Source: Amphiura filiformis | Taxonomy: Eukaryota > Echinodermata > Ophiuroidea > Amphilepidida > Amphiuridae | Assembly: GCF_039555335.1 (NCBI RefSeq) | Contig: NW_027305508.1 | Location: forward strand, 62,001 to 126,000 | DNA: 64,000 nucleotides | Direction: 5' to 3' | Shown: in pieces, positions 39,501 to 64,000 of the stretch | Numbering within the stretch: position 1 is the stretch's first letter | Layout of the letters: each line of letters begins with the position of its first letter | Position numbers and translations under genes: made by a program | Notes under the pieces: model-generated | Seen by the model: the letters and a program-made list of their open reading frames with translations, nothing else | What the model was told of the DNA's origin: nothing | Databases searched by the model: none

Positions 39501-39597
39501 GCCCATATTTATTGGTCTCGCTATGAGTTTTGGACGTACGTCTCGTCCAATATTTTAAAAGTAATAGCGAGACCAATAAATATTGGGCGTAAAGGAT
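39501..39597. repeat. Long hairpin, about 24-bp stem
   Basis: GCCCATATTTATTGGTCTCG then CTAT pairs with ATAGCGAGACCAATAAATAT then TGGGC, with one bulged base and a 47-nt loop. Confidence 0.8.
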
Positions 39598-41095: not shown

Positions 41096-41232
41096 GTTCC
41101 TTATAAAAGCAACTAATTCTTTATGGAATTACTGACATTTGATTTAATGCAGCGTTATACTAGTAGTCTTCATTGTTTTTTTATTAATGATAATCATAAT
41201 GAAAGTTCCCTTACGAAAATGTAATCATAAAA

Positions 41233-41755
41233 ACAAGCTCGAATAAGCTTGTTTCGAGCTCGAGTGAGCTTATTTTGAGCTCAGATGTGATTGATTTTGC
41301 TTGTGTAAGCAACATTGAGCTCCTTCAAGCTCGTAGGTCGAAAGGTCGAGCTCATATTTACGAACACGAGCTCACAATACAAACAAATTACGAGCACAAG
41401 TAGTCAATTGCGATCTTGCCCACACAAACCTTACGAGCTCAAAATGCTCGTTTCTTATATGTGAGCTTGCACGAGCACACATGAGCTCATAAACTTTACA
41501 TGTGAGCTCACACAAGCTTGTACATTTTTTAAGTAAAAATTTCTATTAAATTTGTAAGCTCAAAAATTTGGCGCGAGCTCACTAATGAGCACATACAAGC
41601 TCATTAATTTTGTACTTCATATTTCTAAAACATGTTGTGAGCTTGCAAATTTGATGTGAGCTCGCATGACCGCATACAAGCTCGTAAATTTTGTACTTTT
41701 GTAAAATTTCTACTATGATAATTTGTGAGCTTGTAAAAGTGTAAGCTCATAAATG
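41233..41755. repeat. GAGCTC/CAAGCTC-rich cluster, left
   Basis: About 30 copies of AGCTC or GAGCT in both orientations in 520 bp, separated by 8-25 bases and often extended to ACAAGCTC or GAGCTTGT. Confidence 0.8.
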
Positions 41756-43390: not shown

Positions 43391-43645
43391 TAGCCAAAAT
43401 AACAATTTCTCGATCATAAGAGGATGCACCTTCTGCGTCAATGTACTTTCCATAGAATAACACGATCGCGCGACCTGCATGACCGAACCTTGACCTTGCC
43501 CAGCAACGACCGTGTGATTGGTCAATACTCAAAAGCTGTGTTTGCGCCGTAAGCGCCGGTATTTGCTTAGTACGCTCCGCGTAAATAACTGTGCGTAACC
43601 AAGTTGGCTCTCATGATCGAGAATTTAATATTTTGGCTATAGCCA
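43391..43645. mobile_element. MITE with TATAGCCAAAATA ends, 255 bp
   Basis: TATAGCCAAAATAACAATTT and CTCGATCAT on the left pair with ATGATCGAGAATTTAATATT and TTGGCTATA on the right. The GC-rich centre carries GCGCCGTAAGCGCCGG. A fragment of a second copy lies at 51663-51728. Confidence 0.8.
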
Positions 43646-43898
43646 GCCAAATTCGCCTAGACCGGGACCCAAACACAATGCATATTTACATAGAAATTTA
43701 AAAGAACAGATTGGTACAGGCTGGTCACATGGTCAAGGAAACCTACATAAATATGTTTTCTATTCTTCACTTGACCATAGGCCTATAGCAGTTCCATAAA
43801 TAGCAGTTCCATTAAAAAAAGCTGCTATCATCATGAGACTAAGATCTAGAAACACCATTTTTTTTTTTTTTTTTTTGCTAGCAGAATCTTTTTGATGA

Positions 43899-44046
43899 AA
43901 GTCTGCGCAGAAATAAAATTTCCAGTGCAGTAGTTGTAGTCCTGACCTTGCCCCTATAATATACATATTTTACTTGTCATCAATCCTCTCTAAATTTTGA
44001 GAAAAATGCAAAAATAGACTCAAAATTGGGCAGTAGTACCCCTTAA
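43899..44046. mobile_element. MITE family M1, right half only
   Basis: AATTTCCAGTGCAGTAGTTG and CCCCTATAATATACATA to GGCAGTAGTACCCCTTAA. Confidence 0.75.
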
Positions 44047-44444
44047 CGTCAAAAATATCTCTATAAAAACGTGAATTTTGGAACAAAATAAAGCTTGTAA
44101 TGTTCGACGAAATAACAGGTACGTGTGTACAGTTGAAAGCAAGTTAAAACCTTTTTGAGAAAGTTTAATTTGATAAATTAGCGGTTTTAACCTAAGTATT
44201 TAGCTCGGGTGGTCTAAAAGTCAGGATCGCCGAGGATGCCCTAGTTCTGTTCACCACGTCCACGCATGTATGGCTGACAAAATTCGCACCGCTCGCCATT
44301 GAGTTTACTGACTTCCTTATTTTGATTTTTTTAAACGTTTTTATGATCCCTGATTTCCGGTGGATTATTTTAGCTGTGTCACATGTATCAGTACGGGCAT
44401 AACTGTGAATTCAACGAGGTCGGTCGTTGGATGCAAGGCGTGAG

Positions 44445-44595
44445 GCAGCCAGTCGTGTAGGGAGTGTGTTTTACACACTCAAATTTGTAAATACACACCC
44501 AGATTTTGCCCACATGGCCTATACTTTGTACACAAATATCTTAAATTTTCACACCCAGTGCATTTACACCCCGGGATTTACACACCCAAACTAGC
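44445..44595. repeat. CACACCCAAATTTG repeat, copy 1
   Basis: GGGAGTGTGTTTTACACACT, AAATTTGTAAATACACACCC and CACATGGCCTATACTTTGTA match 55985-56105 in reverse. Confidence 0.7.
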
Positions 44596-45044
44596 TTGAG
44601 ATACTGTAGCTTTATCTGTCACTGCACATAAGAATATATCAACTAAAAACACAATGTAGGTATAGGTTTAGTTTAGTGCAAAATAAGCATTTATTAAGTT
44701 TTATCATAAAAACATTTCAATAACTGGAAATGTACATCAGTCATGTAGGTGATGCACTGAAAGGTTGCATATTGCACCTACTCTTTTTTGTATTTCGATG
44801 TACCTTTTAAATGTTCTTTAAATTAAATGTTCTTTAACTTTATACAGATGTTTGTTTACCTTGTTATTGTTGCAACTACAATAGTCAATCACAATTTTTT
44901 TTTTAAACATCATAATATACCTACAGGTGTAGGACCACATGAAGCCCTTTGACCTGACAACAGGATGCCCATCAGCTGACCTGCATATTAGCCAGAATGT
45001 GCTTTTTGGAAAAGACAACAATCGAGAAATTACGAATATTGGCT

Positions 45045-45540
45045 TGTGATATGGAGCTCAATTGAGCTTGAAACAAGCTTGCATTTGTTACAAGCTCGTT
45101 AACAAGTTAGCTTGTGAGCTTACATTTATAAGCTTGTGTAAGCTCGATAGAAATTGCTGTTGCGAGCTTGTTTCCAGCTCACAAATGTTGCAAGCTCGAT
45201 ATGTTTCAAAAATAAGCTCGTTTTGTTTCAAAATTGAGCTTGTAATTTACAAGCTCGTATTTGTGAGCATATATTAGCTCGTAATGAAACTGCGAGCTTG
45301 TTTCAGCTCGCTTGGGGTGCAAGCTCGTTTTGTTCCAAAATAAGCTCATCAGTTCCAATATCGAGCTTGTAATTTGCAAGCTCATCAAAATGCAAGCTCG
45401 TAATGTTTCAAAAATAAGCTCGTTCTGTTTCAAATACGAGCTTTTTCTTGATCATTACGAGCTTTTTCTTGATCGTAACAAGCTCTGAACGAGCATATAT
45501 AACAAGCTCATAACAAGCTCGTATACAAGCTCAAAATGTG
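45045..45540. repeat. GAGCTTG/CAAGCTCG-rich cluster, right
   Basis: About 35 copies of AGCTC/AGCTT phrases, many in the form GAGCTTGTAATTTACAAGCTC (imperfect palindromes). Open frames across it (QACICYKLVNKLAC and similar) simply read the repeat. Confidence 0.8.
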
Positions 45541-45751
45541 CTCGGCATTTTCATAAGGGTTCTTATTTATCTCACTAACATTCTGAAATTAGGATTTCCA
45601 AATCGGGTGTATTTCCGAAGATATAAAAACACTGCTGAATTAGTCGAAAACGTGGTAGGCCTACAGGATACCACAGTTGGGACCAATTCGACATTTTATT
45701 TGATGATTTCTTCAAAACTACCGATTTGGAACGCCTATAAATTTCAATGTG

Positions 45752-46110
45752 TTAAGGGGTTACTACACCCCTGCCTAAATTTAGGCCTATTCTTGCATTT
45801 TTCTCAACAATTATAGCCTATTGGTGACAGGTAAGATATGTATATTATAGGGGCAAGGACTACAACTATTGCACTGGAAATTTTATTTCAACACAGACAA
45901 CAGTTGTGGAGTTACAGTTAAAAATGAGGGAAACCAATATTTGATCAATAAATCAATAACTACTTTCCTTGAGTTGCTGAATTTTCAGTGCAGTAGTTGT
46001 GTAGTCCTTGCCCCTATAATACATATCTTACTTGTCACCAATAGGCTATAATTGTTGAGAAAAATGCAAAAATAGGCACAAAATTGACCAGGGGTGTAGT
46101 ACCCCCTTAA
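45752..46110. mobile_element. MITE family M1, full copy
   Basis: TTAAGGGGTTACTACACCCC on the left and GGGGTGTAGTACCCCCTTAA on the right. It ends 100 bp beyond the stop codon of the DDTSGN gene. Confidence 0.85.
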
Positions 46111-46208
46111 CATATTTGAGAAAAATATGAGCTTTCACCCGATATCAAAATATATGCACTTTGATAGGGTAGAGTTGGGGATGAGGCTGTCAATAAGGTT
46201 ACCCACCT

Positions 46209-46493
46209 TTAAAATGGAGAATATGGCTGATTGTTAAATACAAAACGATTTAAAAGGTATGCATTTGATTCATTGGCAATAGGAATGAAAACCTGTTTTG
46301 TGTTGATAAATCTAGATGGTATCATTTTAATATATTCGTTGATTTTGTAAGCTCTGCATCTGTATTTTCTCTCCACACCTTCAAATTCTTCTTCCCACCT
46401 CCTGTATTCTTTACATATAATCCAATTTGTGTGCTCTAGAGTTGTCCCGGTAGTAGTGAACTCTATTCCGAAGTCAAATTTAGCGTAGTGGAT
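46209..46493 (-). CDS. DDTSGN gene, last exon
   Basis: Acceptor tttctttctcag opens in phase 0. Encodes IHYAKFDFGIEFTTTGTTLE, YRRWEEEFEGVERKYRCRAY and NAYLLNRFVFNNQPYSPF, then TAA at 46209-46211. A donor-like CAG|GTTTTC inside means that a further exon cannot be excluded. A MITE ends about 100 bp beyond the stop. Confidence 0.6.
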   Translation of the reverse strand: MHYAKFDFGIEFTTTGTTLEHTNWIICKEYRRWEEEFEGVERKYRCRAYKINEYIKMIPSRFINTKQVFIPIANESNAYLLNRFVFNNQPYSPF

Positions 46494-49400
46494 CTGAGAA
46501 AGAAAAAAATTATTAACCATATCATTTACAAAATTTACAAAACATATAATATAAATTTATTATTCGATTTTGTTTTTGTGCAAGATTGACATTACTGGTA
46601 CGTAGTGGTATTTAAAGGTTGGGAAATAGTGGGGACCAGGGGCCATTTACATTTAGCCCATGTCCATTGAAAAAGCCCCAGGTTCCCTGTAAAACTCTCT
46701 GAACCAGGAGCTATTTTTTCACAAAGTAGCCCCATGTCCGGTGCTTCTTATTACCCAGCCTGACTGAGTAAGGTATCAAAATGCACACAACAAATTTTTC
46801 CATCCATTGAATAGCTCAGGTTCATAAAAAATAGCCCCTGGTTCCCTGTAAAAACCTGGGAACCAGGTGCTATTTTTTTCACAAAGTATCACCAATTTTG
46901 ACCAATTACAAAATGCAAAGAAACAACATATTAACCTTGCCATTTGCAAAATATCTGTGAACCAGGAGCTATTTTTTTTCACAAATTATCACCTGGTCCT
47001 GTGCTTTTTGTTTCCAAGCCTGGTGGTCTACTAATTTTGACCAAGTACAAAATAAAAAGAAACAACATATTCACCTCGCCATTTGCAAAATATGCAAACG
47101 AGTCGTCCTTGTTGACCATTTTGTCATCAGTGCTGATTACGGCTTTGTACTGATGGCAGCGTTTATTAAGGAGTTCTTCTGTCACCAGCCTGTGATTGGT
47201 TGTAGTTGGTTCCCATTGGGTAAGTGCATTCTCGACACTTTCTCGTGATATAAGAGTATTGGCTAAAAATGACTTGCGACTGTTGGAGGCTGCTGTAGTG
47301 ACGCCCTGTGGAGTAAATGAATGGTCACATATTGAAAATAGTTTCTTCCAAATAATACTAAAAATTCCAATTTTCTTTTCTTTTTTATATATTAACAGAT
47401 GTGTATGAGATCCACCAAAGAATCAACATATATGCATAACACAATTCAATATTTAGTTGCATCCAAGTCCAGAGAAGCTACTGTGAGCTAGGCCATGGTG
47501 AGTGTAAATTCAAGATGAACATGAAGGGCAACTTTTAGACCAGATAAAGTTATTGTTCGAATGATTTACTAATTTACTGTTGAGTTTGATTTACTGTTGA
47601 TATCTAAAGTTAAGGGGTCGAGCTGTATTGTCTCAAATATCTCCGAAATGGGAGAAAACTGCCATGTTTGCTGTGAAATTTTGCCTAGCAATATCTATCT
47701 CAGGTGTAAAATTTATGGTGCACATGAAAGATTGAAGTCTTTAGATTAATATTTTAGCAATCTTAATATTATTAGTTGATAGGAAATTCTTCAAATATGC
47801 CTGTACATATAACGACGCATAACAGCCCACGCAGTTTTTTATAGGTGAACTCTTTTCGAGCAGTCCGTGTTGGACGATGACCCTATCTTTTGCTGAGGTA
47901 TTTACAGGACCTTGAAATAAGAATTATGATAGATATTTGTGACTTGAATGCAACGAAGGCATGTTCAAGCTCGTCAATACACAAAATACTACCTGATTTT
48001 ACACTCTAAATCGACCACTGTCTGGCGCATGTTATTTTGTTACTTTAAATTCAACAAAATTCCAATTTTTTAGGCAAAAAAGACTTCTAGAGATACCATC
48101 CTGCATGTCCATGTTCGATTTATGGTAATACAATTAACCAATTTTTAAATATCAATTTGTTTAGATTCACGGAAGCCATATTTTGTGCATTTTCGACAGT
48201 AACGAGTTAACGCCAATTTTGGTACAAATTTGTCAGTTTTGCCAAAGTTATTTATCCGGTTAACTAACGAATACCAAGGTTCATAGGCGAGCTAATAGCG
48301 CTATGTTATTTAATTACTTTTACTTACGATTTTTATCATGATTCCGTTTGAGAACAAATATAATTCCTTATGGGTCTCCAACTTTGTCCTCAAGCTTCTT
48401 CACACGACAAGCCATGTGTTGCCAGGCAAGTCAAAAGCAAATTGGGACAAATCGGCACTAAATATGGCCCGTAACTACATCAATATATCACCCAAATGTC
48501 CATGTTATTTAGGATACAATGTTAATGTAAATTGTAATATACAATTTTAAAACAATGTTTAATATGTTCTAACGTGCGTATGCGCGATTCTTTCTCCCGT
48601 TTGAGTTTTAATGTATATACCTGTAAGGGCTGTGCAATAATTATGAGCCCTGGGGAGGGTAAAATTGGGGGGGGCAAGAAATTTTGGCGAGCCAAAGGGA
48701 GCAAGCAATTTTTGGCAAGCTGAGAGGGGGGGGCAAGCGATTTTTGGCACACATTCATGGGGCGCCTTTTAATAAAACGCTCTAAAAGGCTTAGGAAAAC
48801 AGTACGGAAACGCTTAAATATGCAAATTTTTCCTGCTAACTGCGCTTTCATAACAGGTATATAGACCATTTAAGGTTTGTAAATTGGGATCCCAAAAATT
48901 TGGCATGCGCAAGGGGGGGCAAAGAATTTTGGCGGGCCGAGAGGGGGGGCAAGCGATTTTTGGCAGGCCGAGAGGGGGGGGGGGCGCCATTTTTGGCGAG
49001 CCGTTTGGAAATTTTACCCCCGGGGCTCATAATTATTGCACAGCCCCTAATGTATTGACAATCAATTCATAAGAAGCCCAAAGTTAATACCAACACTGCA
49101 GCGCTGGAAACACGGTCAATTCTGTGAAAGGATTTGGGATGAAATCGTTCTGCTTGATTTATTAGGTCTATTAATGTGACAAAGGAACAGGTCTCTAGTT
49201 TGATTCCACAACCATTCAAACCGAGCTCGTGTTTTATTGTATCATCGTGTATTAAAATCAGGAAGGCTATATAAGTAAATGGACCGGAACAATATAACAA
49301 TTATACTGTCACCTGTGTTGAAGGACGGTTCTAAGATACAGGGTGTTCCAGAATGATCTATACCGTGTTTGAAAACATTAATCAACATTGTATTTAATTT

Positions 49401-52400
49401 GAGTGCGGTGCGTGAAATACAATGGCATAAATGTCACCTACTTATTGTGTTACTTTCATTGCAAAAACTTCATTCGTTTTGGCGTGATATTGATATTCTT
49501 AAAACTGGATGTTTTGCACGTGTAAAAATTGCATGTGTGTAACTTACAGCGCAAAGGCTTCATAAGCACAAGACATTGCTGCTTTATCACTATCGCATAG
49601 GCCTACTTTGCAATTATGTGTAGACATCATACAGTTGTCATAGGAGATACACCAAATTTGGCACAGATGTAGAGCTTAAAACACTGTATAATTCTTGATA
49701 TTGGATTAAGTGACCTTTTCATGTGTTTTCAATATTACGAGGGCTCAGAGCAAGAACTAGCTATGTCCACAATTACATGTTACTGATTTCGGCAACAAAT
49801 GGATAGTTAATTCTGCACTCCATAATAAATGCAAGTGACACCCTGTAGCTTAAGATGACAGCGAGCCAGGTTTCAAGATCGATTTCACGACCAGTCATAC
49901 ATATTACCTGTTTTATTGTTACCTTATGGAGGCCAGACTTTTATTTGAATGATAATGGCTCTGTCACGCCGTATTGAATACCCTCTGTACGGAATGTTAC
50001 ATCACAATTCAGTATAATTATTCAAGGTTGGTACGCGTATCTGTCATCGACTTGACAACAGGCACACCCGGTACAAACATTTTGTAAATCGTGGAAAGTC
50101 GTATTTATGCAAAATGATCAAAAAATGATACTTTTAGGTGTTATTCTGTTAGTTTCTGTTTGGCAAATCATAAATGCGTACGTGTTTTGGTCAAAATGGC
50201 AATAATCTTACTTTTACCCCTACCCACCTGATATAGCTATACACAACCCTTAATTTTTGGAATGCTTTCTGTCCATTCTGAGCTGAAATAACAAGATAAA
50301 GTGAAAGAAACCTTACTGATTATTCTCATGGCTTGAAAAAATGGGGATTTTTCATTCCCCGGAAATATTTGTGTTTGGGGAGTTATTCTGGTATTTGGAT
50401 TGAAATTGTGTCTTTTTTGTATATATCAAAGCGTGCTATAAATTGTGGGAAATTTAGCTTCCCAGGAAATTTAGTATCATTTATATTATGGCATTGTGTC
50501 ATTATCATTATAGAATAAAAACTCTTTTATAAAACAACAAAAAACAGTAAAAATCCTGTTGGTCCCTGGCTGGAGAAAATTATAAACGACTGCAAATTAG
50601 TCTATGAGCAACTTGTAGGTCAATGAATTATATGCAAACCACACAAAATAACGTTGCACAAGCCAGTGATCTTGCAATACAAACCGCACAAAATAGAGAA
50701 CGATACATTAGGCGGTCTAATTGTTTATTTTGAAAAGTGGTTGATGATGTGGAATGGATCTCGAAATGCCCCAAATCATACTAAAATTACCTTCCGCAAT
50801 GTACCGCATAGATAAATATCTTTATTCCTGTCCTTCTCAGCGAATATGTATTTCTTCAATTTTGCATTCTCCCCAACTCTATAATCTTGTGACCCACACG
50901 TCCTCTGTTGGAAAAATTAGAAACAGATTGTTACAAAGAAATATAAAAATGGCATTTTGTAATGGCATGTGACATGTTTTAAAATCGGCTTCTACATGAA
51001 AACTTTGTATTCATTAGGTTGTCCGAATGAAAAGAGCTTATGGGATTTGCTTGTCCGTCAATGCGTGTGTGTTTGTTTTCACCTACAAATGTGGGGGTCC
51101 ATGGTTTCACTGTTAACAACCACACACACAATATATTGGTCCACGTTTGTCAGGGAAAACGATTAAGGGTGTGTCCGTCAGACCGTCAACAAAATTAATG
51201 CTATTGCAGCCAAACTTGGGTCATTGATGCACTGTGGGAACCCTCATCTACATTCCTGGTACTCTAAGCATTTACTATCAATATCGACGACAGTCATCAT
51301 TTCGAGAAACCAAAGTCTGTTCTTTAACCCAAAACTCCCTACATTTCATGTGAAAGCACATGAAACAGGCTATCCTAAAACATTGCAAATTAAAGGTGAA
51401 CTTACTCTCCTTCTGCTACACATGTGCCTCCCAATGTGAGAAACCGCAGGTTTTGGAAGCTGGCGAATGTGTTACATATATCCCGGAGGGGGCCTGGTGA
51501 TTGCTGAAGATGTTGGCGAGGCGTATTATACCATTCCACCGCTCACATCTGTAAAAGAAGTTAGAATATTATTGCATTTCTTTTGTTAACTAATCTACTA
51601 CATTCTATGAATATTGATTCACATGCAGGCATGTTAGATTGACTTAATATTTATTACTCATTATAGCCAAAATAAATAATTCTAGATCATGAAAGCCAAC
51701 CTGGGTACGCACAGTTATTTGCGTCGAATATTAGTGCATTTATTTTGTTAACTAATCTACTACATACTATAGTTATTATTTTATGTAATGTCATGTGCCA
51801 CTATGTATGTTCTTTTACAGAATTTCAAGAAAATGGATGAACATCACATACATTGTACAGACCATGGAATGTATCTCACACAGGCAACTCATTGCAAAAT
51901 AAGCCGGTTTGAAACTTTACATCAACAAAATATAAGGTACAGTAAAATGTTTTTGTATATTCTAATTATTACTTTTCAGTGGCGAATCCTGAGGCTGGTC
52001 CAAGGTCCTCCATGTTGGTTATTAGATGTAATAGATAATGAACCTTAGGCTTCCTTGTTAACGTCTCTTCGTAAAGATGAGCTGCATGTAGTACAAACTG
52101 TTCTATTGTCTCCTTCAGTATGTCTAGCTGTTCTAGATGAAAAAGTGGACAAAATGCAATCCTCGCCACCTGAAATAATATAATAACCAAGCTTATCTTT
52201 TTGCATTTTTATATTTTTTCTGAAAATCAACAAATATTGTAATTCTGGTAGATTCTATTCCAACAAATTAGATACAAGTGATGAATTTTGGTGTCATGTA
52301 AGCATGCATTTTCATACCTACCTCTGCCAAACTGACTATCAATTGCATGTCTTCTGGCTCCAGATATGTATCGAGGATAAAAGGGGCAATTTGTATCCAC

Positions 52401-55400
52401 TGCTTGAAGTCGCGCCCTGTAATTTGTAGAAGAATAATCAATGTCTTCAAGATTAATTCATATATTTGTAATTTTATTGATACTTAAATTAAATATTAAA
52501 GTTTTCTAGTTGAATTTGACCGAAATCATGAATAGAATGATTAGTATCAGGTCAATTTTCAGCATTTTATTTTACCTTTTTTCTTAGTGTGTTCTTTGTG
52601 TCTAGAAGTATTTTGTATAGAAAAGTTAATCAGAGTAATTATCGATTTATAACTTATTAGAGATATTGGAATTTAGGAAATCTGCTAGTAGTGGATTAAC
52701 ATTGATTTTGTAGTACAATGCATGTGTGCACTCCTAGTGCACTCAAAAATACCTTATTCTACCAAATCGGGGTGTCCACTTCCTATTCACTCCAATATAA
52801 AAATCAGAATTTTAGGGTGTCCAAATTGAAAACAGGACGTCCAAATGACACCCGGACACGGTCTAGGCTTAGAGAGAAAACGCAATCTCGCTTTTCTCGC
52901 CGTGAATCTCGCTTTTTAGTGCTTTTCTCGCTTTTAAAAGATTCATTTCTACCACGAAAATCTATTTCTGTGGCGAAAGGTTGCAGAATTCGACAACCAT
53001 TGCAACTAAAAAAGCTTAAGTTTGACCTGATTTTCCAGCCTGAATGTACAAAAACGGTCCATTTTCTGGCACATTCAAGCAACAACAAAGTAATATTCTT
53101 TATTTACTACTCAAACCTTGCAGTATATTGACCTTTTAAGCTGATTTATGAGGACAAAATTTGTGTATTTTTGATAGTCCAGTCGGCAATGTCCATGCTT
53201 TGTTTTGGTATCACTCAGGGGTATGGAGTCAATGAAATACTGCCCTCACTCAATTTTTTACCTTTTTTTTATTTTCGCCAATTTTTGGGCATAAATCTCG
53301 CTTTTTTCTCGCATTTTGAAGTTGTCATCTCGCATTTTTGGTCAAAAATTGTGTTTTTTCTCTTAGCCTACGGACACCCCTCTGGCTAATGCATTGGCGC
53401 ACTTTTAATTTTATGCATATTGCTTCCGGACTTCACAACTTAATCTGATGTTAGTTAATGTTAATATTTAAGTACCGGTACTTGATTTAAAAAATAAATT
53501 ATTTTTTTATCAATCTTAATATATTCCATGCCGGATGGTAGGATTACCTAGGAATGAGCCGCAGTACTTGGTAATAGCAGGGACGGCAAATCCGTGTGCT
53601 ATGACCTTGATTCTTCCTTCCATGTCCTTCCTTTGGTCCACAGTTAGTTCTGAAAGATTACAACCAATACTATACAAGTTAATAAATATCTTAACCTCAC
53701 ATTCACATGTTGTTTATCCAATCATGATGAAATCAAAACAAGATAGTAAAATGATTTCCTGGTATTTGTTTTTAAAACATGCAAGTACAGGTAGTAGCTT
53801 CCATTGAATCTGATCACCAAAACAATCATAGTTATTAGCAGGTTAACAAAACACACAATTGACTCAATAAAAGCAATAAAAATGAATACACACAAAAAAA
53901 ATGACACAATGTAGCCAGTCGCACAATGACTTAATAAAACCTTTGTATAGCAACATTTGCATTGTATTTTTTGCTGGACACTACAGCACATCAGACACAC
54001 AACAAATAGTATTTTGAATATTTAGAAAATTAGAAGGTAGACATTTTTTCTGAAAAAAAGACTTCATTTTTATAATCATCTCAAACAAGATAATACTATG
54101 CAAAAGTTGGTGACCGATTCCTTAAGATTTGCTATTATTACCTTGTATGTACTTCTTTGTGAGGTATTTCACAACTCCTAGTGAAATAGTATGCAGAATA
54201 TCAATTGGAGATTTCCTGTGGAGAATTTAAAATTGATTATGTTGTGCAACAGTACATGTATGTTGTGAACATATCCTGGCACATTGGACAAAATCCCACT
54301 AAAGACATTTGGTGTGGGGTATTTTATGTGAAGAAGGTCCAAATTATGCATTTGAAATATCAGATTTACATTGCCGCCTATACATGTACACTAATTAATC
54401 ATTAATTGGGCAATTATGCCAAACCGAAAAGCATTTGCAACTAAAAATTAACATTAAAGAGGGTAACATTCCCTAAAACAAAAAAAAAAATAACTTGTTT
54501 TGTCAATTTTGACCATGTAACACAAATTACACCACCTTGTGATGGTATAATTATTATGACAACTTATTAAAACAGGCTTTGCCGTTTGAAATTTGCATGG
54601 GAGCTTTTAATCGCTCTCCTTGAGTGCTACTGGAGAGGATTTTTACTGTGTTGTTTGTGTGGTTATTGTTACACCAAAGGTAGGCGAGCAATAGAACCTC
54701 TGCTCAGCTTTGCTCGCTCTAGCTCTCCTCAAAATGCAAAGCCTGTTAAAATGAGAAAGTAATCCTGATAAAGACATTAATTTAATTATAAAAGCACACT
54801 AAGTTTCCAGCGACGGCGAAAGTGGCAGGTTAATAATTTTATTTTGAATTAAACATAAAAAGTTGATAATTTTATTACCACAGCTACTTTATTTATGTCA
54901 TTTTAATTATATCCTGTGTCCCAAAGCTACCGCACGCGCTAGTAAATCGCATTTGGTTTGTAATTTCTCACATGCTTTGAGACACTGGATTTAATTAAGG
55001 AGGCCGTACAATTTTTTCCCCATAATGTAAATTATATAATTTTGTATTTTTTTAGAACCAAGACTAGAGCATGGAGAACAAAAACATTCGGTGACAATTG
55101 ACTGTCCTGATTACAATCCATATGGAATAACAACAGGCAGTATCAACTAGCAATAAGGTAAAGGATATATTTTATGGTTGAATTTCCTATATTTGAATCC
55201 TAGCATACATGTATGCGCATGAACTCAAAATCAATTCCAATTCTGATAATAACTGTACTAACATCATGAAGAGAACCTTCATGTATTGGTCACATGCTAT
55301 AGTAGTATGCATGTAGAATACTTACGATTCGCCATCAAATGCTTCTAGTTTGTTGAGATTGTTTTCATTGGGGGATATACCTGTTGCAGTGATGCGCCTT

Positions 55401-58400
55401 TTCTTTTCTGCACTTGACCTACATGTGAGCAGAAGAATCAATTTAAAGAATAAAGTTTAATGTCAATTGTTTTTTAGCCCGTCTTTGCAAAACTATCCAT
55501 GCCTTCAAGGTGAAATTACCCTACTCGTGTTACCATCTGGCCATGGTCTGGGTTGCTATCTGATCTTAACCAGTGAAAGATGACATTCCTTTGGTATTGA
55601 TATTGTTTTCGTTTCATTAACCAGAAATAATGCGCAAGTATCAAAATTAATTGATGAAACAAATGAACTTACTTTGCACGGTTTATGTGTTTCATATCTT
55701 CCAGAACTTCTTTGCGTGTTCTTGGTGTTCCACGAAACATTCGCCATGCTTCCTCAACCTATTAAAATACAAACCAATTGATGTTACTTCATTTAAACAT
55801 TCACTTTTTCATTCATTCATTCACTCTGAAATGGCCCCTGGTTCCATCTCAATTTTAGTTGACCAGGGGACACTTTAATCACAAAACTGGCCCCTTTTTT
55901 TTGTGCCAAAGTGGCCTCTGGTTCTAGCCCTCTTATTTTCACCCTTGCATACTAGAGAGAGTGTATTGGTAGTGGGTCTTATGCAAATAGGCAGGATTTG
56001 AAGGTTTGGGTGTGTAAATTTAAGATTTGTGTACAAAGTATAGGCCATGTGTGCAAAAATGGGTGTGTATTTACAAATTTGGGTGTGTAAAACACTCCCT
56101 ACTCGCCTGGCTGTCTAAGCCCTTGATTGAGCATATGTGACAAGAGTATTACCTTACAGATTCTGCAAAATTGCTTGGCCCTCGCAGATATTACATGACT
56201 TGATAGAAGTGATGAACGAGGATTGTCCCCTAGTACACACAATAACGGGCAATATGCAATTATATTTTCCTGTAAGCTGGAGTCGTACAATTCTATACCA
56301 TTTTCCAGCTCCAAAAGATCTTCTCCAATTGTGTTGACCATATCCAGTGGAGTGATCTGTATTTGAAAATATGAATCAACAATGATGGTATTCAGTAGGC
56401 TAAAATATTACCAGTATATTAATCTCCACCAAATCTAAATTCAATCAGATGTTGTCTTCTGGGTTCACCGTGAGCTAGTGGCACACTTTGAACAAGTTAG
56501 AAGAAAATCGGTTGACATAGTGGGTGTTTGATGCACCCTAGTATTCAGTTACTGAACTTTAATGTCGTGGGATCGGGGCTATTGTCAGTAGCCTTAGTCA
56601 GATGTCCTTCAGCCTATTATGCGACTGAACTATTAAACAGGTCGATATGTATTATGACCATACATGGCGGTGGATTCAATCTACCATGGTGATTTCTGCC
56701 GTGAAGAAATCGGGGCGATGACACTGTGTGTGGCTGGTCTATTCCATTATTTGCCCCAAATATAAATCGGGTGTGAGTCGCTACATAAAAAAGCTGAAAA
56801 CAGCTGTCATATAAAGCTGTAATTTTGGAAGATCCTATACTTCTGTACAAAGACCTAGCATACCTTGTCTGATGTTGCAACAAAGTGTATGTTGTGTAGT
56901 TTCATGTTCTCTGATCTTGGCAATCCAGCGAACAGTATTGCCATAGAATTAAAACAGGCGTATTTTCTGGAGCGGTTCCCGCTGGTATCATCGCTGTACA
57001 GCATCAATGGTATACAAATTGCCTTCTTGCCTTTGCACCTTTGACGTTGCTTGGATGGTGATTCAAGGCATGAAATCATCTGCATGATAGAATACACAAT
57101 ACACAACAATTTTCATGTTTCAAGAATGAAATGTATAAATATAATATTACATACTTAACTAATTATGACCTGATCCTAAAAGAAAAGATTATTTGATCTG
57201 ATCAAAATATCAAAGTAGCTTTCTGAATCATGTGCAATGATTATTAAGAAATGGTCTATTTGCTTAGCTCCTTTAAATTTAATTATAGTTGGAACTTTTG
57301 TGTCACTTTGTGCTTCTAGTTTAAAGGGGTACTACACCCCTGGCCAATTTTGTGCCTATTTTTGCATTTTTCTCAAAATTTATAGCGCATTGGTGACAGG
57401 TAAGATATGTATATAATAGAGGGCAAAGACTACATCTACTGCACTGGTAATTCAGCAACTCAAGGCAATTAGTTATTTTTATAGTACCGTAATCAAATAT
57501 TGGTTTTCCTTCATTTTTGACTGTAACTCCACAACTGTTGTCTGTGCTGAAATAAAATTCCTAGTGCAGAAGTTGTAGTCCTTGCCCCTACATGTATATA
57601 TACATATCTTACTTGTCACCAATGTGCTATAATTTGAGAAAAATGCAAAAATAGGCACAAAATTGGCCAGGGGTGTAGTACCCCCTTAAATATCCAGCGA
57701 TTAAACATTGATTTTAATTTATTATGGGATAAAAGGCCAATTTTGATGGCCATGTTGTTTCAATGCAAGGAGGTGGTTAAGACCGTGCCACATTATTGTA
57801 TGTGTCGGGTGTATGTAACCAATTACATAATTACCCTGTCTGTAATTTAAATATTTATCTTGCAAGAGCTATGATATAATCATATATAAACTACACTGTC
57901 CTCACATCTTCATCCAATTGCTGTAATTGATTTTCAGAATTCCAGGAGTACTTCACCGATGGGGTTTGCACAACGTTCTTAATGGATGTGGATGGCAGCT
58001 GGATTACCATATCTGTCATTACATAACCCTGATACCCATCAGGTAGGTCGATACTATGTGTTAGACATGTGACTTCGTCCAGAAGGCCTATTATTTCCAC
58101 CAGGTTTAGCCATCTGATTTTTAAAGAAATAAATATATGGTAAAATTCATGGTTAAAATCATTTCTAATATTGTGTGCACAATGGGTCTTGTTGCTTGTG
58201 TATGCATGTGCCATAGTATACAGCAAGAAATCTGTTTCCTTTTTTTTCCAGTTTGAATAACTTAACGGGGTTGTGTCCGAAATAAGGAAAATATGGCCAG
58301 GTTATCCTGAGGATAATTAAAGCACAAATTCTGCCTGTCCTCAATACATTTTGGTTGTCCCAAAATGTGTCATACTTTTGGAGGTACAAAATAGTGGTTG

Positions 58401-61400
58401 TCCAGGGGATAAGTACATAGCTCAATATGGTTGTCCCCAGTGAATTTTTGGACAAGAGGATAAGTGCTTATTTCGAACACTAAAGGGGGTAGGTACTACA
58501 CGCATTGCAAGGTTTTTTGTTTTTTGCATTTTGTGAAGAAATGAGAAAAAAATTTGACAAAGTGGTATGCAAAATGAAGGGGCAAACTTTCTTGTTCTAT
58601 TGGTGGCATCAGTATCAATTAGGCTTACTGCTTTTAAAGGTAGAAGCCAAAAAGTGGTACACAAGCATGCCATGTAAGCTCACACTTTTTTTCCTCATTT
58701 CTTCACAATATGCAAAAATGCAATGGGTGTAGTACCCCCTTAAGGATAATGATATTTTTTACAAACTATGAATGCATTTAAAATGGATTCAAGAAGTGTT
58801 ACAATTAAGGGTAATCCATTTCAAATACAAATTTTTAACTGCTATAGATTAACACATGTTAAAACAAACCTTTCACAAAAAAATCCATAACTTTCCCAAA
58901 TGGAATTTCATCCTGAATTTCTACGATGTCATGCATGTATATGTTCTTCGTTTCATCGTTGACTGTCTTTACCGTCACCATTGGTGTTTTGAACATTGGG
59001 TGCTCCCGCCACTTTCTCCCCTGCCACATCTCCTTGATTTTATCTGAAATGCATTGTCATACCATAGTAATCAGGAACATGTCAGAAGTGGTGCATAACA
59101 CATTGACAGTACATTCTTAAACACTTGAGAACGTTCTTGCAATCTTATTGGTTCTTACCCAGCTTTACCCGTGTGATATTGTCACTGTTGCTTTTTGGAA
59201 AATGAATTTTTATTTCATCACAGATTTTGTGGGCACTGTAACCCTTAAAATGGAACTTAATCATGCTACATGCCTCAATTTTCTCCATTTTGCTGGTTGT
59301 GCGGTTACATAGGCAGGTACGGTACTTTTTGATACCCCCTCGTACATGTATCAAATCATTTGCTATTATTGATTAATATTCATACCATCAGTGTGGACAT
59401 CAGTGTGGACAGGGTATCTAACTAATGTTTCAGCAACTCTTGGTATTTTCATTTGTTGTTTCACAATATCACTAGGTTGAAGAAACCATAATGTGTCATT
59501 GCCAAAGCTTTTCTATTGAAAGAACAAGACAAATTTATAAAATCTATTAAAATCAATTTGTAATGGTCAAAACCAGTTGGGTATGCATTGTTATATCGCT
59601 AAAGAATAAGATGTTACAACAACAATTTAAAGTCCTTTTAAAGATCAAGTGTTCGACAGTGTCATATTAAATGATAACTTGCAAGGTTAGGTCATCCAAC
59701 CTAAAATTCCCTTCATATTAATTATAGTGGAATAGTTGGATTGCTTATAATTACCATTTCCAAATTCTCCAATATCAATGGAATTGATCCACCAATTACA
59801 TAGATACCGTCTTCCGAATAATGATTGACATGCTCGTTTTGACCAAAATCACTACAAATGGGCCTGGCTTAATAAGAAAATCTAAGGTTAGACGGGACTA
59901 TAATTGGAAATTGTGTGTTCTGACATTGAATTCCCCATGAGGTGTTTATAAATCAGGATTTTCATTGCTTGTAGTTATAAAAAAAAACATTACAAAGAAT
60001 AAGAGCCTGTCTCCTTATTATGTACCCAAATAAGGGGGTTGTGATTCAAAAAAAATTAAAAGTGATGTCTTCCATAGAGGGTGAATGGATTACAACTGGA
60101 ATAGCCCAATGTAACATACCTGTTTTGGAACAACTGCATCTTTGCCTAGAGGATCAAATGCGAGTACCTTGGATAGAGGTGGTGGTTGTATGCCTTGTGT
60201 TTCAAGTATATACCATAGAAATTCAAGGTCTTGCTCAGACTGCAAAATAATTTCAATGCAAGAAATAATTGGTACATAATCATTTATGTAGCGAGAAGTT
60301 TCCAGTGATATTTCCAAAAATCTTGGATATTTTAATAAAAATGTTATGGAAATGACAATTTTTTTTATTATAAATCAAAAGGTTTAAGCCTTGAAACATT
60401 ATTTTACTGTAATTTAAGTTGCTTCTATGCATGATTTCAGTAAACAGAAACATTATTACAGGGGTGTCTATTCCGTTAATTGCCCCCAAAGGGGAGGGAA
60501 TAATTTTACCCCTATGAGGCCAAATTTTTGTATGGGTTCATTGTGGCCACAAAAGATTATTCTGATGGAATTTCATGAGAGGGTCACCTGGGGACACCTG
60601 GTTGATTTGACATGGACTGAACCAATAGTGACTAGTGGTCATACTATAGGTAATAATGCACACAAAGAGTAAGGGGGCTCTGCTTTGCATATTTCATACA
60701 AAACCCATTTTCTTTTTAGATTGGACATCTGCCTATCTAGGGAAGCATTTGGGATTCTAAGGGAAGACATGACCATCAATTAGTTAACAGCTCTATTGTC
60801 CAAGTTTATCTTCTCTTTTAAACCTCAACTTCAGATCCAAATCCTTGATTATCCTCCCCCGGCCTTACCAATAGTTCAGTAGCAATCTCCAAACTCTGCT
60901 ACAGAAGTAACTTTATTTTTTTCTGAAAAAAGGCAGTTTTTCTCGCAAAATTACATTAAAACTGAATAAGAATGAGAATAAAAGGTAGGATTTTGCGCCG
61001 GCATCCACTACCCAAAATATTGGCCAGCCATCCATTATGACACGATATTGGATAGGCAAAAGACAAAATCCTATCTTTTATTCTCTAAATACATGTAGAT
61101 AGCAACCAGTCTAAAATTTCCCCTTTTGAGTCCATTTTTTGGGATCTCAGTTGGGGAAGAATCTGGGGATGGATGTGACACAGCCGTAGGGTGAGGGAAT
61201 AATTTCAACTTTCTGGAAGAATAGACACCCCTGGAAACATATTTTTAGTGGTTTGAAATTTTGACCCTAAAAATCAAGTTACACCCTTTAATGTGAAAAT
61301 GATTATTTAATTCCCCTCAAAAATATGGAATTTGATTTATATAGTATATACCTTGGGTCTGTGTGGGTTTTTGGCGTAACAATGTAACAGGAAGAATAAT

Positions 61401-61708
61401 TCACTGGGGTATGGATATGTACTGTTATCATTATTGTTGCACTGATTCTCTTCTATTGGTTCCTCTTCCTTCTCATCCTCTTCCTGCTCGAAGTCTTCAT
61501 CGTCCAAGTCATACAGGATATCTTCATGTTTGTCCACTGTATTTACCACCAGTGGTTCATTAAATACTTGTTGCATCCCTGATGTGAACGAATTGTGTGT
61601 AATAACATGATTTAACTTGTGAGCATTCCCTTGCATGTGTCTGGCAAGTTTTGAGGGCTTATCAAACGATGAAGCACATTCAAAGCAGTCGTGATTCCGT
61701 TTCGGCAT
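46209..61708 (-). CDS. C2H2 zinc-finger, transposase-like 'DDTSGN' protein, about 18 exons
   Basis: Minus-strand exons: 61352-61708, 60120-60239, 59755-59863, 59386-59512, 59159-59338, 58870-59043, 57906-58113, 56864-57079, 56153-56356, 55673-55758, 55326-55418, 54142-54215, 53548-53649, 52322-52416, 51973-52169, 51406-51548, 47075-47305 and 46209-46493, about 1000 residues. Order of parts: C2H2 finger CFECASSFDKPSKLARHMQGNAH split as C-x2-C-x12-H-x5-H; acidic linker; DFGQNEHVNHYSEDG; MWQGRKWREHPM; PLMLYSDDTSGNRSRKY and FAGLPRSEN; CVLGDNPRSS with FCRICK; DILHTISLGVVKYL; FLGRDFKQW; ERWNGIIR with SNHQAPS. From memory these blocks occur in this order in very numerous transposase-like proteins of basidiomycete fungi, possibly related to KDZ-type transposases. 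The acidic DD/D positions may be catalytic (inference). Breaks: a one-base loss in the 51406-51548 exon and phase mismatches at 60120/59863, 58870/58113 and 51406/47305. Several MITEs sit in the introns. Confidence 0.7.
46615..47035. repeat. CCAGGxGCTATTTTTTCACAAA repeats and duplicated exon edge
   Basis: Three to four units of GAACCAGGAGCTATTTTTTC plus ACAAAGTA alternate with GGTTCCCTGTAAAA. Between them, 46898-46965 repeats the exon 17/intron border of the DDTSGN gene (47033-47100). A similar phrase occurs at 55825-55925. Confidence 0.65.
47075..47305 (-). CDS. DDTSGN gene, exon 17
   Basis: Acceptor ttactccacag, donor GGCGAG|GTGAAT, 77 codons. Encodes GVTTAASNSRKSFLANTLIS, TEELLNKRCHQYKAVISTDD and SFAYFANGE. 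The phase does not follow from exon 16, so an exon in the 4-kb gap may be missing. Its 3' end is duplicated at 46898-46965. Confidence 0.6.
47306..48624. other. Intron of the DDTSGN gene, no repeat recognised
   Basis: I searched the minus strand here for an exon joining 51406 to 47305 and found none that I could defend. Confidence 0.35.
48625..49052. mobile_element. TIR element, AGGGGCTGTGCAA family, copy 2
   Basis: AAGGGCTGTGCAATAATTAT and GAGCCCTGGGG on the left pair with GGGGCTCATAATTATTGCAC and AGCCCCT on the right. G-rich GGCAAGCGATTTTTGGC units repeat inside. It lies within the DDTSGN gene intron. Confidence 0.85.
49053..51405. other. Intron of the DDTSGN gene, no exon or element recognised
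   Basis: AT-rich, with several short open frames of intron-like composition. Confidence 0.35.
51406..51548 (-). CDS. DDTSGN gene, exon 16, one-base frameshift
   Basis: The acceptor tcttttacag completes Lys and reads CERWNGIIRLANIFSNHQAP and S. The conserved continuation DICNTFASFQNLRFLTLGG is one base out of frame after CCCTCCGGG (51481-51489). The original frame meets a stop at GTG TAG. Donor GGAGA|GTAAGT. A loss from the G or C run fits. Confidence 0.65.
51663..51728. repeat. Fragment of the TATAGCCAAAATA MITE
   Basis: TATAGCCAAAATAAATAATT, ATCATGAAAGCCAACCTGGG and TACGCACAGTTATTTGCG match the reverse of the right part of 43391-43645. Confidence 0.75.
51973..52169 (-). CDS. DDTSGN gene, exon 15
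   Basis: Acceptor attatttcag, donor ACTGAAAA|GTAATA (phase 2). Encodes VARIAFCPLFHLEQLDILKE, EETLTRKPKVHYLLHLI and LGPASGFATEK. K-x-H-x-LLHL followed by TEK/R is typical of the relatives (memory). Confidence 0.7.
52322..52416 (-). CDS. DDTSGN gene, exon 14 (GRDFKQW)
   Basis: Acceptor caaattacag, donor GCAGAG|GTAGGT. Encodes GRDFKQWIQIAPFILDTYLE and QLIVSLAE; phase-matched. Confidence 0.7.
52720..53405. repeat. Element rich in TCTCGC, possible insertion
   Basis: TCTCGCTTTT or TCTCGCATTT occurs seven or more times. GGGTGTCC on the left mirrors GGACACCCC on the right. The 137-codon plus frame over it is rich in Ser/Arg/Phe from the repeat. It lies in an intron of the DDTSGN gene. Confidence 0.4.
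53548..53649 (-). CDS. DDTSGN gene, exon 13
   Basis: Acceptor atctttcag, donor CTAG|GTAATC. Encodes ELTVDQRKDMEGRIKVIAHG and AITKYCGSFLG, running into GRDFKQW of the next exon. Confidence 0.65.
54142..54215 (-). CDS. DDTSGN gene, exon 12 (DILHTISLGVVKYL)
   Basis: Acceptor ttctccacag, donor CAAG|GTAATA. Encodes KSPIDILHTISLGVVKYLTK, a block matching the P-x-[ED]-ILH-T-x-LG-x-VKY element that I recall in the fungal relatives. Confidence 0.7.
54565..54753. mobile_element. 190-bp TIR MITE
   Basis: TTAAAACAGGCTTTGC on the left and GCAAAGCCTGTTAAAA on the right; inner GAGCG/CGCTC phrases also pair. Confidence 0.75.
55326..55418 (-). CDS. DDTSGN gene, exon 11
   Basis: Acceptor cacatgtag, donor GAATC|GTAAGT, phase-matched on both sides. 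Encodes KSSAEKKRRITATGISPNEN and KLEAFDGES. Confidence 0.6.
55673..55758 (-). CDS. DDTSGN gene, exon 10
   Basis: Acceptor attttaatag, donor GCAAA|GTAAGT, phase 2 out. Encodes VEEAWRMFRGTPRTRKEVL and EDMKHINRAK. Confidence 0.6.
55985..56105. repeat. CACACCCAAATTTG repeat, copy 2, inverted
   Basis: GGTTTGGGTGTGTAAATTTA, TGTGTACAAAGTATAGGCCA and GTGTGTAAAACACTCCC. It abuts the DDTSGN gene exon at 56153. Confidence 0.7.
56153..56356 (-). CDS. DDTSGN gene, exon 9 (GDNPRSS / CRIC)
   Basis: Acceptor caaatacag, donor TGTAAG|GTAATA, 68 codons. Encodes PLDMVNTIGEDLLELENGI, CPLLCVLGDNPRSSLLSSHV and ARAKQFCRICK. CxxC with the upstream His may bind zinc (inference). Confidence 0.75.
56864..57079 (-). 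CDS. DDTSGN gene, exon 8 (core block)
   Basis: Acceptor ctatcatgcag, donor GACAAG|GTATGC, exactly 72 codons. Encodes KKAICIPLMLYSDDTSGNRS, then FNSMAILFAGLPRSENMKLH and HFVATSDK. This is the most conserved part of the transposase-like family as I recall it. A ~200-bp inverted copy of the exon start and adjoining intron lies at 62641-62834. Confidence 0.75.
57321..57689. mobile_element. MITE family M1, full copy in intron
   Basis: TTAAAGGGGTACTACACCCC on the left and GGGGTGTAGTACCCCCTTAA on the right. Intron between exons 7 and 8 of the DDTSGN gene. Confidence 0.85.
57906..58113 (-). CDS. DDTSGN gene, exon 7
   Basis: Acceptor tttaaaaatcag, donor GAAGAT|GTGAGG, 69 complete codons. Encodes WLNLVEIIGLLDEVTCLTHS and VMTDMVIQLPSTSIKNVV. 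Phase out (0) matches exon 8; phase in conflicts with exon 6. Confidence 0.65.
58273..58482. mobile_element. 210-bp TIR MITE
   Basis: GTGTCCGAAATAAGG on the left and GCTTATTTCGAACAC on the right; GGTTGTCC recurs three times inside. It directly abuts the M2 copy. Confidence 0.65.
58483..58743. mobile_element. MITE family M2, full copy
   Basis: AAAGGGGGTAGGTACTACAC on the left and GGGTGTAGTACCCCCTTAA on the right, with TTCTATTGGTGGCATCAGTA inside. The two arms pair around TTTGCATTTTGTGAAGAAAT. Confidence 0.8.
58870..59043 (-). CDS. DDTSGN gene, exon 6
   Basis: Acceptor tgcatttcag, donor GTGAAAG|GTTTGT. Encodes DKIKEMWQGRKWREHPMFKT, then YMHDIVEIQDEIPFGKVMDF. It ends in a run of seven T. The next exon needs phase 2 rather than 1, which one extra T would provide. 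Confidence 0.65.
59159..59338 (-). CDS. DDTSGN gene, exon 5
   Basis: The acceptor tgtacgag and donor AAGCTGG|GTAAGA give a phase-correct exon. It encodes GGIKKYRTCLCNRTTSKMEK and FHFKGYSAHKICDEIKIHF. The cysteines do not form a motif I recognise. Confidence 0.6.
59386..59512 (-). CDS. DDTSGN gene, exon 4
   Basis: Acceptor tttcaatag, donor ACTGATG|GTATGA. Encodes KSFGNDTLWFLQPSDIVKQQ and VAETLVRYPVHTDVHTDG. Phases match exon 3 and exon 5. Confidence 0.65.
59755..59863 (-). CDS. DDTSGN gene, exon 3
   Basis: The reading PICSDFGQNEHVNHYSEDG then YVIGGSIPLILENLEM ends at donor GAAATG|GTAATT. The best acceptor (attaagccag) needs an incoming phase of 2, but exon 2 ends in phase 0, so a small exon is missing or one base has changed. 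Confidence 0.5.
60120..60239 (-). CDS. DDTSGN gene, exon 2
   Basis: Acceptor ttattttgcag, donor AAACAG|GTATGT, exactly 40 codons. Encodes SEQDLEFLWYILETQGIQPP and VLAFDPLGKDAVVPKQ. Phase agrees with exon 1. Confidence 0.65.
60459..61233. mobile_element. 775-bp TIR element in the first intron of the DDTSGN gene
   Basis: CAGGGGTGTCTATTC on the left and GAATAGACACCCCTG on the right, followed inside by GGGAGGGAATAATTTTACCC and GGTGAGGGAATAATTTCAAC. A second nested inverted pair (AAAAGGTAGGATTTTG, CAAAATCCTATCTTTT) spans 60979-61081. Confidence 0.8.
61352..61708 (-). CDS. DDTSGN gene, exon 1 with C2H2 zinc finger
   Basis: ATG at 61706-61708 begins MPKRNHDCFECASSFDKPSK, continuing to the two zinc-binding histidines. 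A Glu/Asp-rich region and YPSELFFLLHCYAKNPHRPK follow, with donor CCCAAG|GTATAT in phase 0. The basic start MPKRNHDC and the finger suggest DNA binding. Earlier non-coding exons are possible. Confidence 0.7.
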
Positions 61709-61818
61709 CTTAATTGTTGTTGACCTAGAGTAGAGAATGATGAATATCACATGACTATGAGAAAATTAAATATTCGGATTTTAAGTTTTGTTGTGTATCT
61801 GGATGTTCAACGTTTGTA

Positions 61819-62180
61819 TTAAGGGGGTACTACACCCCTGCCCAATTTTGTGCCTATTTTTGCATTTTTCTCAAAAATTATAGCGCATTAGGGACAAGTA
61901 AGATATGTATATTATAGGGGCAAGGACTACAACTACTGCACTGGAAATTTTATTTCAGCACAGACAACAGTAGTGGAGTTACAGTCAAAAATGAGGGAAA
62001 ACCAATATTTGATCAATAATCACTAACTACTTGCTTTGAGTTGCTGAATTTTCAGTATGGTACAGTAGTTGTAGTTCTTGCCCTATAATATACATATCTT
62101 ACTTGTCACCAATGTGCTATAATTTTTGAGAAAAATCAAAAATAGGCACAAATTGGCCGAGGTAATAATACCTATAAAGA
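61819..62180. mobile_element. MITE family M1, right end decayed
   Basis: TTAAGGGGGTACTACACCCC on the left; the right end reads TTGGCCGAGGTAATAATACC. It lies about 110 bp upstream of the DDTSGN gene start codon, so it may contribute to its promoter region. Confidence 0.8.
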
Positions 62181-62640
62181 TTTCATGTTAAAATTTCACT
62201 TATGTGTCACTAAATAAGATATTTATGTTTCTTTTCGTCTTTTTCATTTTATTTCAGAATAAAAAAAACCATCTGGTCAATGTCTAAGAGAGACCTTCTG
62301 GCAAAACCCTGGAGAGACAAATGGGGTGTGATTTGCAGCAAACTGGGATTGAAGACTGAAATGAACAGCACTTTAAAAAGGCTATCTTGATTTAATAATG
62401 GGTGGCGTTTGTGTCTGGCTTCCAAAATATGATGGTCAATCTCAATTTTCTTCCCGATGACTTTGCACAACAGGTTGAACCAGGATAAAAACCCAAAACA
62501 ATTACCAAAAAACAGTACAAACATGTAAGAAGCAAACTCATTATGGTTCTGACTTAGTGTGCAGGTAAATGATATGGCAATTAAGTCTGGAATTATATTT
62601 ATGGTTTGCTTGATGTTCTTTGAAATAAACATCAGAAGAG

Positions 62641-62834
62641 TTTCTTAATAATCATTGCACAAGATTCAGAAAGATACTTTGATATTTTGATCAGATCAAA
62701 TAATCTTTTCTTTTAGGATCAGGTCATAATTAAGTATGTAATATTATATTTATACATTTCATTCTTGAAACATGAAAATTGTTGTGTATTGTGTATTCTA
62801 TCGTGCAGATGATATCATGCCTTGAATCACCATC
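62641..62834 (+). pseudogene. Inverted duplicate of the DDTSGN gene intron 7/exon 8 border
   Basis: Reading plus, TTTCTTAATAATCATTGCAC through TCTATCGTGCAG and ATGATATCATGCCTTGAATC is nearly identical to the minus strand of 57252-57048. Only about 25 bp of exon is included; after CACCATC the similarity stops. It probably arose by a local rearrangement. Confidence 0.8.
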
Positions 62835-63490
62835 TATCATGCAGAAGAGTGTGGAAGCATACCTTGTTTGTACTTGTACATAAAAATTATTTTTTCTTTT
62901 TCATACATGTCAAATATTGAAATGTTTTATATTTGAAGAGCTTATTTCCAAACCACAAACATGTTGCTGATTTACCTATACATACGATATTACTATGTGT
63001 TGTGATGCTAGGTATGATAATTTCAGTTGGGTGCACCATTTCAAAGCAAGCAGTGGATGAACACATAGTAACAATACTGTGTGAGGTCTTTGTTTCCCAA
63101 ATGAGAACAATAGTCTGCATATTGTTAACCAGTATTGTGGTAAATAATGGCTTGTTGATGGTACAACTCATTGTTGCTAATGTCAAACTAAATTGTGGTT
63201 GTGGACTTAACAGTTTGGAAAATAAGCTCTTCATTTATCAAACAAAGGATTGTAAAATGTAGAAATCATCTTATTTTTAACATCATATTTTGATAGGAAA
63301 GAATAAGGATTTATATTTATAAAACAAATGATTGGAATGATATGAGTATGGACTACCGTATTAATTGCAATGCGCTAAAAAAAAGTGATTTTGGGTGGAC
63401 GCTTATTTTTACCTGGTTTTCCTATCTTTTGTAAGGGGTGTTTGTTTAAATTTACTAATGTTATAAAAGGGTCCTGAGATGTTCTACAAG
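62835..63490. other. Unassigned sequence
   Basis: Overlapping frames of 109-115 codons on the two strands (62887-63262) have no motif and no clear splice context. Confidence 0.35.
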
Positions 63491-63599
63491 GAATAAAGGT
63501 ATTGTTTTTAGCCAGGGGGCACTGTTGGGGATAATGAAGTAGCCCGTTTTATATGAGACGATAGATGCACGACAGCAGCAAAAAACAATACCTTTATTC
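63491..63599. repeat. Hairpin with 22-bp arms
   Basis: GAATAAAGGTATTGTTTTTA then GC at 63491-63512 pairs with GCAAAAAACAATACCTTTAT then TC at 63578-63599, with one mismatch. Confidence 0.75.
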
Positions 63600-64000
63600 T
63601 CATTCTTAAACAATTCAATTAATATAACTTGGAACTACAAATTTTAATCGGATTAAAGCCTACATTTTACATGGAACTACCTAGGGCTTAAAATCAATCA
63701 GTCCTGTTGTTGCTATGCGCCTCCGATTAATTCAAGTTTGTCTCAAAACTCAAAACAAATTTGAAATCCTTTTTTTTTATTCCCAGCTTTTTTATCGTAT
63801 GTTGCAAAAAAAATCTTGTTTCTCGAAAAAATTAAAAAGGAAATAAAAAATATATTTTTCAAATGCGCGCGGGAGAGCTTTGAGACCTTGTCAAAGTTAA
63901 AACAAAATCTAGTTCGATAGTGACGTCATCACTCTTGTGGTTGCTGATTAAGTATTTCAAAAGTTGGTCAAAATCAAAAAAGGATAGTTTTTATATTAAT
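63600..64000. other. Unassigned AT-rich end of window
   Basis: No exon or repeat family recognised. Confidence 0.4.

Follow-up and report, generated by a model that had tools for sequence, protein, structure and literature searches.

The closest described relatives of the gene reported here, which lies in a 64,000-nucleotide stretch of the genome of the ophiuroid Amphiura filiformis, are probably DNA transposons related to CACTA. Transposases of the CACTA/EnSpm-Mirage-Chapaev-Transib (CMCT) clade are stated to have a CxxC motif after the second D and an HxxxH motif before the last E (PMC12730594), and the Pfam family Transposase_21 is assigned to the RNase H-like superfamily (PMC3985635). A paper of 2006 (PMC1636069) reported animal members of the CACTA-related TRC elements in sea urchin, sea squirt, zebrafish, mosquito, beetle, and schistosome. 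For these elements the same source gives a distance of 80 residues between the two D, a motif I that holds in most members, with W and G exchanged in three of the four fungal ones, and a box A, [LVI]Dx[LM]HxxxLG, that is found in the animal proteins and three of the four fungal ones and that the plant proteins lack. It also describes spliced transcripts for SmTRC1 of Schistosoma mansoni and one animal element with ends of only 10 bp, and names domestication as one possible cause of the missing terminal inverted repeats (TIRs) in animal TRC elements. The stretch analyzed, called the window here, covers positions 62,001 to 126,000 of the forward strand of contig NW_027305508.1 (NCBI RefSeq assembly GCF_039555335.1), and the gene occupies 61708-46209 of it on the minus strand. 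It is read as one copy of a CACTA-related DNA transposon of animals (TRC/EnSpm-like, CMCT) with at least 17 exons, most likely immobile, a reading to which we give a probability of about 0.72. That this is a multi-exon gene of transposase type is well supported by the sequence, and the best-supported filing is CACTA/EnSpm-related, within the CMCT clade and nearest to the animal TRC elements.

In the joined protein, the CMCT landmarks follow one another in the order D (SDDTSGN), D (GDNPRSS), CxxC (CRIC), box A (IDILHTISLG), HxxxH (HYLLH), and E, and it is in this succession, box A apart, that the likeness to the clade lies, the clade having C(2)C and then H(3-4)H, here H(3)H, after the second D and ahead of the E. 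Candidates for the last E are found in TEK and in CERWN (exon 14), and the two D are 85-86 residues apart. IDILHTISLG matches the box A consensus exactly; a six-frame translation of the window, 127,996 residues in all, contains the motif a single time, in exon 10 and at its expected place in the order, and when the joined protein was shuffled 100,000 times it turned up in only 10 cases. The block DILHTISLGVVKYL is likewise located in exon 10. None of 20,000 shuffles reproduced the complete pattern in order, for which the gap lengths were chosen once the protein had been seen. The order of D, D, CxxC, HxxxH, and E alone proves little, because the landmark order without box A was matched by 548 of 5000 shuffles. 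This figure, together with the fact that open frames and splice signals guided the visual selection of the exons, is what could be said for an assembly of unrelated open frames by chance, which we regard as very improbable given the box A and full-order controls, the agreement of reading phase and the count of open pieces described below, and the GC content of 0.41 in exons vs 0.35 in introns. By a strict criterion, 15 of the 17 exons hold an open frame, the failures being exon 14, because of a frame break, and exon 17, because of its own stop codon. When the exon layout was placed at random offsets, 0 to 10 pieces were open in 1999 of 2000 cases, and the remaining offset, with 15, was a shift of -11 bases and thus nearly the true layout; this control is rough and biased toward the exon chain, as the pieces had been picked for openness, and the box A control is the better of the two.

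The rebuilt chain (Table 1) has 17 exons that total 2824 bases and a predicted product of ~939 residues in three coherent pieces. The introns have GT...AG borders in 16 of 16 cases, and the reading phase agrees at 15 of the 16 exon junctions. At the junction of exons 4 and 5, near a run of T, the better donor leads out of phase, and only a weak donor, GTTTTA, 4 bases further on leads into phase. In exon 14, no single frame is open throughout: the CERWNGIIR..SNHQAPS half and the DICNTFASFQNLRFLTLGGTC half lie in different frames, the switch adjoins a run of C, and of the two halves it is the DICNTFASFQNLRFLTLGGTC one alone that joins exons 15-17 in phase. The break may be genuine or may stem from misassembly; there is no further stop in the predicted product. 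Exons 15-17 contribute ~208 residues and the stop codon, and the 3485-base intron 15 possibly holds an additional exon. A first-pass annotation of the same DNA had strung 18 exons into one order of conserved blocks. All the blocks it quoted lie on the minus strand of 46209-61708 and follow one another as it had listed them, and its multi-exon chain stands, with a count of 17 rather than 18 unless intron 15 supplies another.

Table 1. Exons of the rebuilt gene and two associated repeats, in window coordinates.
Feature	Position	Strand	Observation
Exon 1	61352..61708	-	ATG start, acidic stretch, C2H2-like finger CFECASSFDKPSKLARHMQGNAH (Pfam, under cut-off: zf-C2H2_jaz E 0.04, zf-C2H2 E 0.087)
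Exon 2	60120..60239	-	Frame open, GT-AG borders, phase agrees with both neighboring exons
Exon 3	59386..59512	-	GT-AG borders, phase checked
Exon 4	58870..59043	-	Weak donor would extend exon to 58866
Exon 5	57906..58113	-	GT-AG borders, phase checked
Exon 6	56864..57079	-	SDDTSGN (56995-56975) with the candidate first catalytic D
Exon 7	56153..56356	-	GDNPRSS block, candidate second catalytic D 56227-56225; CRIC 56167-56156; Transposase_21 E 0.0045, under cut-off
Exon 8	55673..55758	-	GT-AG borders, phase checked
Exon 9	55326..55418	-	GT-AG borders, phase checked
Exon 10	54142..54215	-	IDILHTISLG 54205-54176, the box A known from TRC elements of animals and fungi
Exon 11	53548..53649	-	GT-AG borders, phase checked
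Exon 12	52322..52416	-	GRDFKQW block, its first residue split by the junction
Exon 13	51973..52169	-	HYLLH 52040-52026; candidate catalytic E near exon end, 51977-51975
Exon 14	51406..51548	-	CERWNGIIR..SNHQAPS, frame break by run of C, then DICNTFASFQNLRFLTLGGTC in other frame
Exon 15	50791..50902	-	GT-AG borders, phase checked
Exon 16	47075..47305	-	GT-AG borders, phase checked
Exon 17	46209..46493	-	Carries stop codon
Inverted partial copy	62641..62834	+	96% over 198 columns of 57054-57251, which crosses from the end of intron 5 into exon 6 and takes in 26 bases there
Palindromic MITE in intron 5	57320..57690	.	Related copies on either side of the gene (45752-46110, 61815-62162) and at 37977-38322

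Compared with the TRC elements, the gene shares two D ~80 residues apart, CxxC, box A, and introns, and its similarity to Transposase_21 is below threshold. The open reading frame (ORF) of exon 7 gave Transposase_21 (PF02992) as its sole Pfam match (E 0.0045, 16.6 bits, profile positions 96-161 of 213), the joined core gave the same family at E 0.04 and 13.6 bits, and shuffling the exon 7 ORF yielded no Pfam match up to E 1 in nine shuffles. We treat this profile evidence as suggestive only. Plant CACTA TNPD proteins, which belong to the same Pfam family and are matched across exon 7 at a sub-threshold level, lack box A (PMC1636069) and also differ in motif I. SmTRC1 measures ~4.5 kb and its main ORF 1,683 bp, whereas the coding region here is spread through 17 exons across 15.5 kb. 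In motif I, as judged by eye in IPLMLYSDDTSGNRSRKYACFNSMAIL, the hydrophobic strand and the D are present; the difference from the TRC elements is that the first D is followed by D (DDTSGN) and not G, and that no WP follows. A search of the PDB with the core returned no meaningful match (best E 0.78). Plavaka, a fungal lineage with the Pfam profile PF18759, has the CMCT landmarks in common with this gene and is the lineage that the first-pass annotation may have had in mind; it was rejected as the family here, as PF18759 did not appear when the three joined pieces were compared with Pfam at E values up to 1. Basidiomycetes have a very large, poorly characterized family of transposase-like proteins with DDTSGN. 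The earlier reading of the gene as a transposase agrees with the CMCT landmarks and box A, whereas its view of the architecture as a fungal speciality does not hold, as animal TRC members have been known since 2006 (PMC1636069). With TRC relatives of CACTA on record from both animals and fungi since that year (PMC1636069), a fungus-like transposase in an animal is unsurprising.

Relatives were sought outside eukaryotes. A scan of IMG/VR proteins found one stretch that fit the pattern and was not a relative, scans of the same collection with two degenerate patterns found 0 and 0 stretches, and prokaryote genomes held five stretches that fit the DDTSGN pattern, none of them a relative, with a best tblastn match of the core at E 0.26 over 10 residues. 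The absence of viral or prokaryote relatives in these collections is expected, because the family is eukaryotic. Prokaryotic contamination was considered as a source of the gene and rejected, as the prokaryote-genome scan yielded no relatives of the core. In the literature covered, with Repbase and most subscription journals outside its scope, we found no paper with the string DDTSGN, none joining EnSpm, invertebrate, multi-exon, and transposase, and none linking DUF6589, a domain found elsewhere in the window, with a transposon; we make no claim of an unreported lineage.

Several points weigh against the reading as a TRC-like transposon, in addition to the ease with which shuffles reproduce the landmark order without box A. 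The TRC motif I (DG, F/Y, WP) is not found as such in IPLMLYSDDTSGNRSRKYACFNSMAIL, where D-D stands in place of D-G and F/Y and WP are absent. Transposase_21 never rises above its curated cut-off (16.6 vs 28.6 bits), and its E of 0.04 on the joined core is no better than that of an unrelated DUF116 match to the reversed core (E 0.027). The collections searched, IMG/VR and prokaryote genomes, gave no relative; the exon 14 frame break adjoins a run of C, so that it is possibly an assembly error; and for the element itself neither a TIR nor a target-site duplication, which would be 2 bp as in TRC elements, was found. The gene could instead belong to a separate DDTSGN lineage of CMCT transposases, common to animals and fungi and with a motif I that departs from that of TRC proteins, and have become an intron-rich animal host gene, a proposal we consider a long shot.

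The ends to be expected of a CMCT element are TIRs, mostly with CA..TG termini, next to a target-site duplication of 2-5 bp. With known repeats masked, the best inverted repeat between 61709-64000 and 38001-46208 scored 14, a value reached or exceeded in 6 of 30 simple shuffles; on the upstream side this search could reach no further than 64000, where the window stops, and ends of small length would be indistinguishable from chance. A 14-base inverted pair at 44709-44722 and 62915-62928, with ATA on both sides, was examined as a pair of ends and rejected as being at the shuffled level. The gene is also flanked by copies of a palindromic miniature inverted-repeat transposable element (MITE), which were rejected as its own ends, as the same family is found at 37977, in intron 5, and as fragments elsewhere. 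An intact, possibly active intron-bearing transposon would be consistent with the positions of the two irregularities, by a run of C in exon 14 and near a run of T at the junction of exons 4 and 5, if both were assembly errors, and with the ~939 residues otherwise uninterrupted by a stop; its ends would lie outside the stretches searched or be too short, and ends like the 10 bp of one animal TRC element (PMC1636069) would be lost in the chance level here. However, no inverted repeat above chance was found in the stretches compared, and the introns hold a MITE and further repeats that point to a long residence, which makes this explanation distinctly unlikely in our estimate. An old, decayed copy that is no longer mobile is the most likely state of this transposon, favored because of the exon 14 frame break and the lack of recognizable ends and also because other small elements lie inside its introns.

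The MITE family measures ~350 bp, is palindromic, and has copies at 37977-38322, 45752-46110, 57321-57689, and 61815-62162, which are 84-89% alike in their best-matching sense. These have GGGGGTACTACACCCC-like ends and mostly TTAA-like borders, by which target site we take the family to be piggyBac-like; the copy at 61815-62162 has one end eroded, and fragments lie near 12.0, 12.4, 26.5, and 43.9 kb. Further repeats of the window fall in introns 4, 7, and 15 (58518-58663, 56007-56113, and 48794-49050, respectively). The last of these is the second copy of a pair with 32893-33132, 83% alike and with C/G runs. The low GC content of the sequence, its many introns, and its MITEs are in keeping with an animal host.

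A transposase captured long ago, whose ends were lost and which the host retained, in spliced form, for DNA binding or as a nuclease in the cell, would also fit much of this evidence. Such a domesticated host gene is in keeping with the long 17-exon chain, in which splice signals are good and lesions few, with the candidates for D, D, and E, with the MITE in intron 5, and with the lack of detectable TIRs, the more so as domestication is a possible reason for absent TIRs in animal TRC elements (PMC1636069). Against it stand the frame break that exon 14 has in this assembly and the piece from a border of the gene that is repeated in inverted orientation 5.4 kb away, and we hold domestication to be unlikely. 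Of the two readings that the first-pass annotation had offered, an intron-bearing mobile element and a domesticated gene, either may apply, but the frame break and the missing ends favor a decayed or immobile copy.

Elsewhere in the window, two open frames at 6683-9110 on the plus strand carry pieces of DUF6589 (E 0.00033 and 6e-11), the second with a PHD-like finger (E 0.00047), and a few kb from them, at 13386-14129 on the minus strand, is a Helicase C-terminal domain (E 1.5e-13), RecQ-like by eye (SGRAARDGDNG). Large inverted repeats at 20255-21547, in which CAAACGTTTG-like units are abundant, surround a 19-base tandem array, and 31541-32044 is a tandem of five direct copies with a unit of ~100-110 bases. 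Rfam and tRNA scans of the window gave no matches.

By analogy with its family, an intact enzyme encoded by such a transposon would bind the ends of the element with its N-terminal C2H2-like finger and would cut and join DNA at a metal-dependent D-D-E center on an RNase H-like core, with a zinc-bound insertion giving shape to the cut-and-paste transposase. The exon chain, its splice signals, the ordered landmarks, and the frame break of this assembly are seen in the sequence itself. For the present gene, we infer catalysis and the RNase H-like fold in this way, and the immobility of the copy is likewise a conclusion from the analysis. The CMCT transposases include Transib, the source of RAG1. 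Should the gene after all represent the domestication of a separate lineage, it would form a parallel to the origin of RAG1 from a sister transposase. As a copy of an animal CACTA-related transposon, it extends a kind known since 2006, and as a well-preserved member with 17 exons, it bears usefully on the way introns are carried by elements of this sort and on whether hosts capture them.

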